Shown piece by piece: positions 56,163 to 58,742 of a stretch of 64,000 nucleotides of DNA. Both the position numbers and the translations under genes were made by a program. This DNA is from Halorarum salinum (GTDB lineage Archaea > Halobacteriota > Halobacteria > Halobacteriales > Haloferacaceae): NCBI RefSeq assembly GCF_013402875.1, contig NZ_CP058579.1, positions 2,852,001-2,916,000 on the forward strand, written 5' to 3'. The notes beneath the pieces are model-generated. The model ran no database searches and had not been told where the DNA came from. It worked only from the letters and a program-made list of their open reading frames with translations. Numbering within the stretch: the first letter of the stretch is position 1; the number at the start of each line of letters is the position of its first letter.

Positions 56163-56474
56163 CCCCGCCCCCGTTCGACGATCCTCCCACGTGCAGGTTT
56201 CAGCGGCCCTCGAACCGTTTCTAGCGGGCTGCTCGCTTCGAGTTCGTTCGGCCCGATCGATGAACGCTATTGAAATCTCTGATATCTAGTAAGAAATGAA
56301 TAACATTCCTTATGTACTCCCGGTACTTTATTTGAGAATGGGGCTGTGGCGGTCTGAAACCGTCGATTCTGACCGACCTTCATCGAATCCTGAGTTTTCA
56401 AATCGATTCAGTTATCGAAGTGGCAGGAATATTTAGGTAATTATTCCTCTGTATCTCCCCCCGAACGAAACGTC
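56163..56474 (+). promoter_or_regulatory. AT-rich gap before the hydrophobic micro-gene
   Basis: No gene is seen in this 312-base gap. It is the most AT-rich stretch of the chromosomal part, with GATATCTAG-like motifs, and a TATA-like ATATTTAGGTAA at 56429-56440 about 40 bases before the next ATG. The AT content suggests recent acquisition or a regulated promoter. Confidence 0.5.
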
Positions 56475-56606
56475 ATGTCCGACAACCCGGTCAAGACCTA
56501 CCTCGCATCGCACCCGAGAGCCTGCGGCGCCGTCTTCATGATGTGCATGCTGCTCGCCAGCGCGGGCAACGCGGCGGCGACGGCGTCCTGCTTCAACGGC
56601 CCGTAA
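56475..56606 (+). CDS. 43-residue hydrophobic micro-protein (DUF7503-like)
   Basis: It starts MSDNPVKTYLASHPRACG, has one hydrophobic helix (AVFMMCMLLASAG), and ends with a Cys and Asn-Gly-Pro. The HPR, AGN and terminal GP match a family of haloarchaeal micro-proteins known to me as DUF7503-like. Its stop is directly next to the stop of the convergent CHAT gene. It could be a pore or membrane target of the CHAT protease; that is inference only. Confidence 0.6.
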   Translation: MSDNPVKTYLASHPRACGAVFMMCMLLASAGNAAATASCFNGP

Positions 56607-58742
56607 TCATATCTTCGAGAAGTCGAGTTCGTCCGACCACTGCAGTTCGTGATCGATAATTAACGGCGTCCGCTTCTGTTTGGTAGTCGATTGAAGGTTT
56701 TCCCTTTCTATCGTCAGGGTCGGCGGCCTGCTACCGAGGAGATAATACGCCCCGTCCTCGTCGAAGTGATCGACGAAGAAGCTCCCGGCGCCGTAGCTCC
56801 GGTTAGGGACGACTCGATGAGTGATCTCGAATCGGTCCTCCGAAGGTTTGTTCCGCGTCATGATCTCGACCAACGTCGGGGCACCGCTATCAGCCTGACA
56901 CAGCGTCACCCCGGCGTCGCCGACGACCGAGTACGCCCCGCCGACGACGTGGACCTTCTTCACGACGTCGAGGACGCCGTGGAGGTCGAAGCCGTAGTCG
57001 AGCAGTCGCGCCATCGTCCGGCCGGCGTTCGTCGCCATGATGTTGCCGACGTCCGTCGTCGTCACCAGCCCGCCGATGCTGCCGGCCCGGACGAGTTCCA
57101 TCCCCTGGGTGTAGGAGGTGCAGGCGTTCAGGAGGAACGCCTTCACGCCGGTCCCCTCGAGGGTGTGGAGGTCCAGATACCCGTCCGAACACTTCATCCC
57201 CTCGGCGTCGACGTGGCCGACGAAGTGGAGGAAGTCGTGTTCGGCCGCGAGCAGCTCGCGCAACTGCTCGCACGTCAGGTCGAACGCGATGTCGATGTCG
57301 AACTCGAGGTAGTCGCGGAAGCCGTAGAGCTGTTCGGTCTCCTCGCGCATCTCGTCCTCGTTGCAGACGACCTGGACGTCGATGACCCGCGACTCCGAGG
57401 CAGGCTGGTCGAGCCGTCGGCGGTACGAGCCGACCGTCGGCTTCGAGGCGCCCACGGGGTAGCCGTCGCCGACCCAGACGTGCCCCACCGTGTCGACCGG
57501 CTCGGGGGTGACGACCGTCTCGTCCTCGAAGGCGTCCCCGTCGACCCCGACCCCGCCCTCGTCCTCGGATCGGTAGAAGTCGCCCAGCGAGTCCTCCTGC
57601 CGCTCGGCTGCCGCCGGGATCGCCTCGGGGTTCCTGATCGCCGAGAGGTCGTTCACGACGAACGGGAGCAGCTCCGCGCTGGAGGGCTCGGGCGCCACGT
57701 CCGCGGTGAGGTGCCAGTCGAGGAGCCCCGAGAGATCGTCCGTCGGGACGTCGACGTAGGCGGCGAGACGCTCGTCGAGCGGGAGGTCGTACAGCCGGCC
57801 GAGGTCCAGGTCGACGCGCTCGTCGACGACGCGGCGCTCGTGGAGGTCGACGTCGTAGAACCCCTCGGTCCGGACGACGCAGTCGAGCAGGAACACGTGT
57901 TCGAGGAACTCCCTCGTCTCGGCCGCGAGGCCCCCGCCGTCGAGACGGTGGGTCGTCCCGGCGGCCGTGACCGCCGGCGCGTCGCCGGGAACCACCGTCG
58001 CCCCGAGGTAGTACGCGAGCGTCGCGACGGTGTACACCGCACCCCACTCCTCGGGGACGGCGATCCTGACCCCGGTCCCGGGCGGGGCGGCGAACGACGG
58101 AATCTCGCGCTCGTCCCCGAACGAGACGAGCGGCGGGTGCCCACGCAGCGTGGGGAACGAGCGTTCGGGGGAGGTGGTTGCGAGCGCCGACCCGAACGTC
58201 GAGACGGCGTCCATCAGGCCCCGTGGCGTCTCCGGTACCGTGACCGTGCCCGCGGGCCGCCCGTGGAACGACCGGGCGCCGACGCGGACCGTCCGGGTCC
58301 CGTCGTACTCGAACCGCGTTCGGTCCCCCTCGCTGTCGATGCGGAACGGGCCGTCCAGCCGGAGGTACAGCTTCATCGGGGCGGACGACACCTCCAGTTC
58401 GTACCGTCCCGCGTCGATCGCCGTACACTGTCCCGGCGGACAGGAGTCGACCGGCGACCCGTCCTCCCGGACGTACACGGCCACGGGCTTCCGGAAGGCG
58501 AGGTGGTCGGTCTCCACGGTCACGGCCGAGTCGACGGGGAACACGAAGCCGTCCGCGTCGGTCGCGCGTCGGCCGGCGCCGCCCGCGTCGACCCTGAACG
58601 ACACGTCCTCGATGTCGTCCCGGACCAGCAGGTCCTCCCCGTCCCGTTCGAACCGTATCACCGTCGGCGCCCCCCGCACGGTCGACACCGGCGACGGCCG
58701 CCCTCGTCGTCCCCCCAACGTCGTCGCATTCGGGATGGACAA
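56607..58742 (-). CDS. CHAT-domain protease-like protein
   Basis: This 711-residue protein has a C-terminal CHAT (caspase-like) domain: HFVGHVDAEG with His510 and LLNACTSYTQGMEL with Cys541 form the catalytic dyad. The N-terminal 370 residues are a beta-rich domain (FDGPFRIDSEGDRTRFEYDG-type strands) and the middle is acidic. CHAT proteases cut gasdermin-type or other targets in bacterial immunity. The start codon is TTG at 58742 behind a TTTAATA box; GTG at 58661 is an alternative. It is convergent with the micro-gene and adjacent to it. Confidence 0.75.
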   Translation of the reverse strand: MSIPNATTLGGRRGRPSPVSTVRGAPTVIRFERDGEDLLVRDDIEDVSFRVDAGGAGRRATDADGFVFPVDSAVTVETDHLAFRKPVAVYVREDGSPVDSCPPGQCTAIDAGRYELEVSSAPMKLYLRLDGPFRIDSEGDRTRFEYDGTRTVRVGARSFHGRPAGTVTVPETPRGLMDAVSTFGSALATTSPERSFPTLRGHPPLVSFGDEREIPSFAAPPGTGVRIAVPEEWGAVYTVATLAYYLGATVVPGDAPAVTAAGTTHRLDGGGLAAETREFLEHVFLLDCVVRTEGFYDVDLHERRVVDERVDLDLGRLYDLPLDERLAAYVDVPTDDLSGLLDWHLTADVAPEPSSAELLPFVVNDLSAIRNPEAIPAAAERQEDSLGDFYRSEDEGGVGVDGDAFEDETVVTPEPVDTVGHVWVGDGYPVGASKPTVGSYRRRLDQPASESRVIDVQVVCNEDEMREETEQLYGFRDYLEFDIDIAFDLTCEQLRELLAAEHDFLHFVGHVDAEGMKCSDGYLDLHTLEGTGVKAFLLNACTSYTQGMELVRAGSIGGLVTTTDVGNIMATNAGRTMARLLDYGFDLHGVLDVVKKVHVVGGAYSVVGDAGVTLCQADSGAPTLVEIMTRNKPSEDRFEITHRVVPNRSYGAGSFFVDHFDEDGAYYLLGSRPPTLTIERENLQSTTKQKRTPLIIDHELQWSDELDFSKI

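Follow-up and report, generated by a model that had tools for sequence, protein, structure and literature searches.

Within a 64,000-nucleotide stretch of the Halorarum salinum genome (here called the window), a gene for a 43-residue hydrophobic peptide (56475..56606, + strand; MSDNPVKTYLASHPRACGAVFMMCMLLASAGNAAATASCFNGP) and an open reading frame (ORF) of 711 codons (56607..58742, - strand) face each other tail to tail on adjacent bases, which raises the question of what joins a micro-protein to its convergent neighbor. The original prediction took the pair to be a CHAT protease with a small membrane-damaging effector, possibly antiviral. Both ORFs are present at these positions and their stop codons abut.

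The two genes and their partnership

The peptide matches the Pfam family PF24335 (DUF7503) with 54.1 bits against a gathering cutoff of 27, and the micro-protein is thus a real gene, as had been proposed. Its conserved leader (56475..56579, + strand), delimited by an alignment of 56 peptides and a position profile, consists of an N-terminal segment, an HPR motif, a hydrophobic stretch, and an Ala-rich end, and is under purifying selection (pN/pS 0.17-0.23). It is followed by a hypervariable tail (56580..56606, + strand; defined by pS/pN and tail diversity) that reads TASCFN, an invariant Gly-Pro, and the stop. The consensus is MS(D/E)...YL(A/E)(E)(H/N)P(R/K)-M-x-G-x-LFT-x-x-LLLSQAG-x-x-A-A, tail, Gly-Pro-stop. 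HP[RK] stands 29 residues from the end in 99 of the peptides bearing the motif and 28 residues from it in 18; position -10 is Ala in 108 of these 117, and position -12 is mostly Ala or Val. The leader resembles a signal peptide whose A-x-A end falls exactly where variability begins. The nine-residue tails are almost uncharged and comprise 103 distinct sequences among the 117 peptides. Given that all Gly codons, all Pro codons, and all three stops are in use while Gly-Pro is constant, selection acts on the protein. Judged from these alignments, what the peptides have in common is their last 8-9 residues, which end in Gly-Pro and lie at a constant distance from HP[R/K]. Gly-Pro is absent from about 14 peptides; at eight loci (L128, L130, L131, L306, L314, L367, L368, and L371), peptides with HPR and a hydrophobic segment have tails ending in TID, IV, IG, or NGG[AS]IS/IY. 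One further locus (L271, genome G143) carries two tandem DUF7503 gene copies encoding an identical protein. A SecM-like arrest at Gly-Pro-stop was considered and set aside, as there is no downstream gene in cis to regulate and no arrest motif common to the tails.

The AT-rich gap noticed beside the pair (56163..56474, + strand) reads, from its composition and from 145 upstream regions, in which GC drops to 0.31 at -60 to -30, as the promoter region of the peptide gene. A conserved operator 5' of the peptide was rejected, since only AT-rich promoter sequence without a common motif was found, and an Rfam search of the locus gave no match.

For the long ORF, a confident AlphaFold2 model (pLDDT 88.8) matches separase, gingipain R, SAVED-CHAT, and Csx29 in Foldseek, and the catalytic His510 (HxxGH; codon 57213..57215, - strand) and Cys541 (NxCxS; codon 57120..57122, - strand) are kept in 80 of 81 homologues. 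The neighbor is, on this model, a CHAT fold with an intact His/Cys dyad and predicted proteolytic activity, in agreement with the original assignment. No Pfam or NCBIfam match (searched up to E=1), PADLOC match, or PDB sequence match was obtained, as this CHAT family is too divergent for the curated profiles; membership of clan CD is defined by fold and dyad, a curated profile match being supporting rather than defining. The true start probably lies ~20-27 codons downstream of the annotated one: the first ~27 residues, absent from most relatives and poorly modelled, make the start uncertain and are probably untranslated.

In 60 related genomes, all 61 DUF7503 matches above the Pfam cutoff adjoin a CHAT gene in convergent orientation, as do 12 of 22 scored weaker matches, and none adjoins a CHAT gene in any other orientation. 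The four DUF7503 genes of the source genome are likewise each convergent with an adjoining CHAT paralogue. Among the best 80 GTDB relatives, the peptide occurs at the CHAT 3' end in 74, whereas random windows of equal size hold a small ORF ending in Gly-Pro in 0.86% of cases; together with the 61/61 convergence, this shows that the adjacency is not due to chance. The exceptions are soluble small ORFs ending in Ser-Gly-Pro, CHAT-CHAT arrays, or an insertion between both genes. Across 194 near-complete haloarchaeal genomes, CHAT is present in 177, and the peptide in 165 of these versus 0 of the 17 without CHAT, as read from the genome match listings (p 5e-17). The co-occurrence across haloarchaea on which the original prediction had staked itself is therefore found. 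At loci that had played no part in forming the idea, the peptide was present in 71 of 72, 63 of them ending in Gly-Pro.

The partnership also follows the active site. In 291 sampled loci (263 unique), 250 of 277 CHATs with an intact dyad have a recognised partner versus 0 of 13 dyad-less ones, and for the peptide itself the counts are 87 of 108 catalytically intact CHATs versus 0 of 13 dead ones; the dead paralogues may form one clade, so that 0/13 does not represent 13 independent events, the locus sample favors high-scoring CHATs, and pairs and paralogues are phylogenetically non-independent. This strict convergent co-occurrence, restricted to catalytically intact CHATs, bears out a functional pairing. 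The 27 intact CHATs without a recognised partner include tandem arrays; L194, L198, and L268 are CHAT-CHAT arrays with no recognisable peptide. The dyad-less paralogues (L142 at G000:C1:1066950-1068020, L224-L226, L229, L235, L236, L238, L240, L241, L247, L248, and L251), never seen with a partner peptide, are perhaps regulatory pseudo-proteases. Stop codons abut or overlap at many loci; at L106 and L199, ~1 to 2.6 kb separates CHAT and peptide, still convergent.

A hypervariable cassette across the convergent junction

Divergence was profiled along both genes in 35 independent, congeneric close-orthologue pairs. In the peptide, the leader (pS 0.27, pN 0.08) and its hydrophobic part (pS 0.29, pN 0.09) are conserved, whereas the tail is not (pS 0.60, pN 0.27), with the exception of Gly-Pro (pN 0.000). 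The protease mirrors this pattern: residues 420-580 have pS 0.30-0.31 and pN 0.03-0.08 (540-580 within them, pS 0.30 and pN 0.03), versus pS 0.65-0.71 and pN 0.27-0.34 for residues ~615-711, the values of pS at cassette divergence being near saturation. The CHAT profile was replicated in 15 pairs from later loci (residues 618-711, pS 0.70 and pN 0.32), and the genus group of the source organism fits it as well (2 pairs). In the window, the hypervariable C-terminal subdomain (residues 618-711) corresponds to 56610..56891 (- strand), and together with the tail it spans 56580..56891 (no strand).

Comparison of 19 Halorubrum species puts DNA identity at 0.91-0.93 in the leader, at 0.47-0.55 over most of ~300 bp, and at 0.86-0.93 beyond; raised pS in so sharply bounded a segment indicates allele replacement by recombination. 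The Halorubrum core and cassette trees conflict, with 10 incompatible split pairs at a support of at least 0.9, and cassette-tree groups have similar tails (QAAATP/QAAVNP/QGATTA; AATSNP/AATCNP; AMATTP/AVATTP; MAASNP twice). At equal core identity, pairs that have one CHAT C-terminal allele in common agree at 4.2 of 6 positions of the tail, versus 2.6 of 6 otherwise. Tree conflict, tail sharing, and the allele-sharing test mean that both halves move together. Within Halorubrum alone, tail and CHAT C-terminus were not significantly correlated in a Spearman test (p 0.24), since most alleles are saturated, and the coupling is therefore drawn from the allele-sharing test and the tree conflict. The tail and CHAT residues ~618-711 thus form one ~300-bp hypervariable cassette with conserved flanks that is swapped between backbones, and that both specificity halves lie side by side within it can explain why the genes are invariably tail to tail. 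A tail that correlates with the CHAT C-terminus could also be the product of linkage alone, given that both lie in one recombining segment.

The tail is also found without the membrane segment. In one genus, the gene in the peptide position (L283/L136, L290, L292, and L206, the last from a MAG named as Haloplanus, whose units are of the same type) has no hydrophobic segment and no recognisable signal peptide, and consists of a short stub followed by 13, 7 (the first truncated), 10, and 2 unit copies, respectively (e.g., YTADGNSGGISGP, MTADGNGSGISGP, MNADGNGGGISGP, YNADGNGGAVSGP). Among the 13 units of L283, the DNA has diverged (pS 0.58) but the 11 compared residues are unchanged (pN 0.000), which marks the Gly-Pro unit as the element under selection; it can be multiplied, and no membrane helix is needed. 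Other non-hydrophobic convergent small ORFs at CHAT 3' ends (L253, L262, L139, L140, L191, and L331), ending in YGGP, NGP, KAP, or SGP, are possibly further carrier types.

Proposed allele-specific recognition and its alternatives

We infer that the pair is very probably held together by allele-specific recognition between peptide and CHAT, in the manner of lock and key. The key would be the variable C-terminal 8-9 residues ending in Gly-Pro, presented by a conserved leader that is a membrane segment in most species and a soluble stub in a few. The lock would be the C-terminal subdomain (~residues 618-711) of the partner CHAT, to which the key would bind directly. The substrate groove of clan CD proteases is formed in part by loops that follow the catalytic Cys, and a role as substrate or pseudo-substrate is therefore natural for such a ligand. 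The most likely role would thus be to control how active a potentially lethal protease, or one of the stress response, is, and that the peptide is the cognate ligand controlling a suicide or stress CHAT protease seems to us somewhat favored. The ligand may restrain the protease until it is lost, cleaved, or displaced; inhibition rather than activation is a tentative choice, to which we give a little less than an even chance. New specificities would arise by recombinational exchange of the one ~300-bp cassette holding both halves, kept in one piece by the tail-to-tail orientation. Against lock and key stands the topology of the leader, which, being signal-peptide-like and N-in/C-out, would leave the tail on the outer side of the membrane, apart from a CHAT in the cytosol.

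This same feature is central to the main rival, an exported pheromone serving kin recognition, which we consider possible but unlikely. Signal peptidase would cut after Ala -10, and the 8-9-residue Gly-Pro peptide would be exported and, at a later point, sensed intracellularly by CHAT, as receptor or maturation protease, with the cassette alleles as pherotypes. Hypervariability does begin right after the A/V-x-A motif, the leader is conserved and the mature part variable, precursors with multiple copies exist, and the contiguous polymorphism with tree conflict is as in comQXPA (PMC4408185). Yet the multi-copy carriers and CHAT alike are without a recognisable signal peptide, the hydrophobic part is more conserved than usual for signal peptides, and the conserved neighborhood contains no recurring transporter or importer; it contains no dedicated processing enzyme or histidine-kinase receptor either. 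In a broader reading, to which we give close to an even chance, the pair would be a widespread archaeal self-recognition system: a Gly-Pro peptide, exported or intracellular and released from precursors with one or many copies, would be recognised by its cognate CHAT, which decides cell fate, and types would arise via cassette swaps.

Less probable still, and in our view quite improbable, is the proposal from which the analysis started, that CHAT clips the peptide and frees a membrane-active helix as a minimal analogue of bacterial gasdermin killing. The hydrophobic helix of most members and the intact dyad are compatible with it, but the diversifying part is the tail, and the recognition signature lies in the extreme C-terminus of the peptide and in the C-terminus of the protease. 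Its strongest counterargument is the repeat carriers: soluble ORFs replace the hydrophobic part at several loci, including tail-only tandem arrays that retain the Gly-Pro unit up to 13 times. Nor does the setting favor an antiviral function. PADLOC gave no match at the locus, the window neighbors are of housekeeping type (GatC/GatA and a TFB-like gene to one side of the pair, TrkH/TrkA-like genes to its other side), and a viral or plasmid origin was rejected, with no phage or viral-contig match to CHAT or peptide; CHAT does occur in 24 haloarchaeal plasmid records, each typed as non-mobilizable. HalX response regulators and TbsP-like regulators recur beside CHAT loci, which hints at signalling rather than a defence island. 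DUF7504 (PF24336), whose Pfam number adjoins that of DUF7503, is found no more than 700 bp away at 74 of 201 CHAT loci. In most cases it is upstream of CHAT and shares its strand (54 matches); less often it lies on the far side of the peptide, in divergent orientation to it (19 matches). The window has no copy. The modelled protein adopts a KaiC/RecA fold, and a conserved LLVVG segment stands where an active P-loop might be expected.

Two further accounts are very unlikely. Antisense pairing between the overlapping 3' ends of convergent transcripts, with the peptide sequence of little importance, would suit the stops that abut or overlap at many loci but not a leader under purifying selection, a Gly-Pro kept despite varying codons, or an orientation retained across gaps of more than 1 kb. 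Relaxed selection or a mutation hot spot at gene ends, without functional coupling, would account for hypervariable C-termini with raised pS but not for the invariant Gly-Pro, the conserved Gly653, Pro693, and Trp702 inside the variable CHAT region, the co-transfer of both halves, or the weaker contrast in peptide-less CHAT paralogues (3 pairs only).

Relation to known systems and significance

Each part of the arrangement has relatives. The Pfam entry for DUF7503, of which the window peptide is a member, gives no function, partner protease, cassette, or repeat carriers. Separase, gingipain, Csx29, and SAVED-CHAT share the clan CD fold and His/Cys dyad; the haloarchaeal CHAT has an N-terminal beta-sandwich and an alpha/beta domain in place of TPR or SAVED. 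Unlike Csx29 and SAVED-CHAT, it has no CRISPR or cyclic-nucleotide genes alongside and its partner is a tiny hypervariable peptide, and in contrast to the type III-E TPR-CHAT (Craspase), there is no TPR in the model, no Cas7-11-type neighbor, and no PADLOC match. Bacterial gasdermin modules place a caspase-like or CHAT protease beside a membrane-associated partner, whereas here no gasdermin is present, the partner being mostly 42-65 residues long or a repeat ORF, and the membrane segment is dispensable.

Signalling loci come closer in layout. In RRNPP systems (Rap-Phr, Rgg-SHP, AimR-AimP), the last ~5-10 residues of an adjacent short precursor are the variable ligand of a cytosolic TPR receptor; our pair has a similar precursor with a variable C-terminal tail as putative ligand, but a CHAT protease in place of the TPR protein and, in one genus, soluble multi-copy carriers. 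The agr locus is a polymorphic pheromone locus with a conserved leader and variable mature peptide, co-directional genes, and a histidine kinase receptor. In comQXPA/comQXP, a contiguous polymorphic segment covers peptide and partner, with tree conflict (PMC4408185). Here too, one hypervariable segment spans peptide and partner, with a conserved leader and tree conflict, seen between species; the comQXPA and agr genes are co-directional with a histidine-kinase receptor, whereas ours are convergent and involve a protease.

We know of no system in which a CHAT protease and a hypervariable cognate peptide share a convergent cassette that is swapped. The open-access papers searched hold no mention of DUF7503 or DUF7504, or of a CHAT domain together with Haloferax. 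The arrangement as a whole thus appears new and the archaeal system undescribed, as the original prediction had supposed. In Haloferax volcanii, an IETDase-type caspase-like activity has been reported without a known gene (PMC3615174). Haloferax species carry the CHAT/peptide pair, and the CHAT family is a candidate for this long-unassigned activity.

The cassette would also represent a genetic device, undescribed as far as we know, in which the genes stay convergent because the two halves of the specificity have to recombine together. To our knowledge, no peptide signalling has been established in Archaea; if the proposal is true, about 90% of the sampled haloarchaeal genomes would carry a peptide-based recognition or cell-death system.
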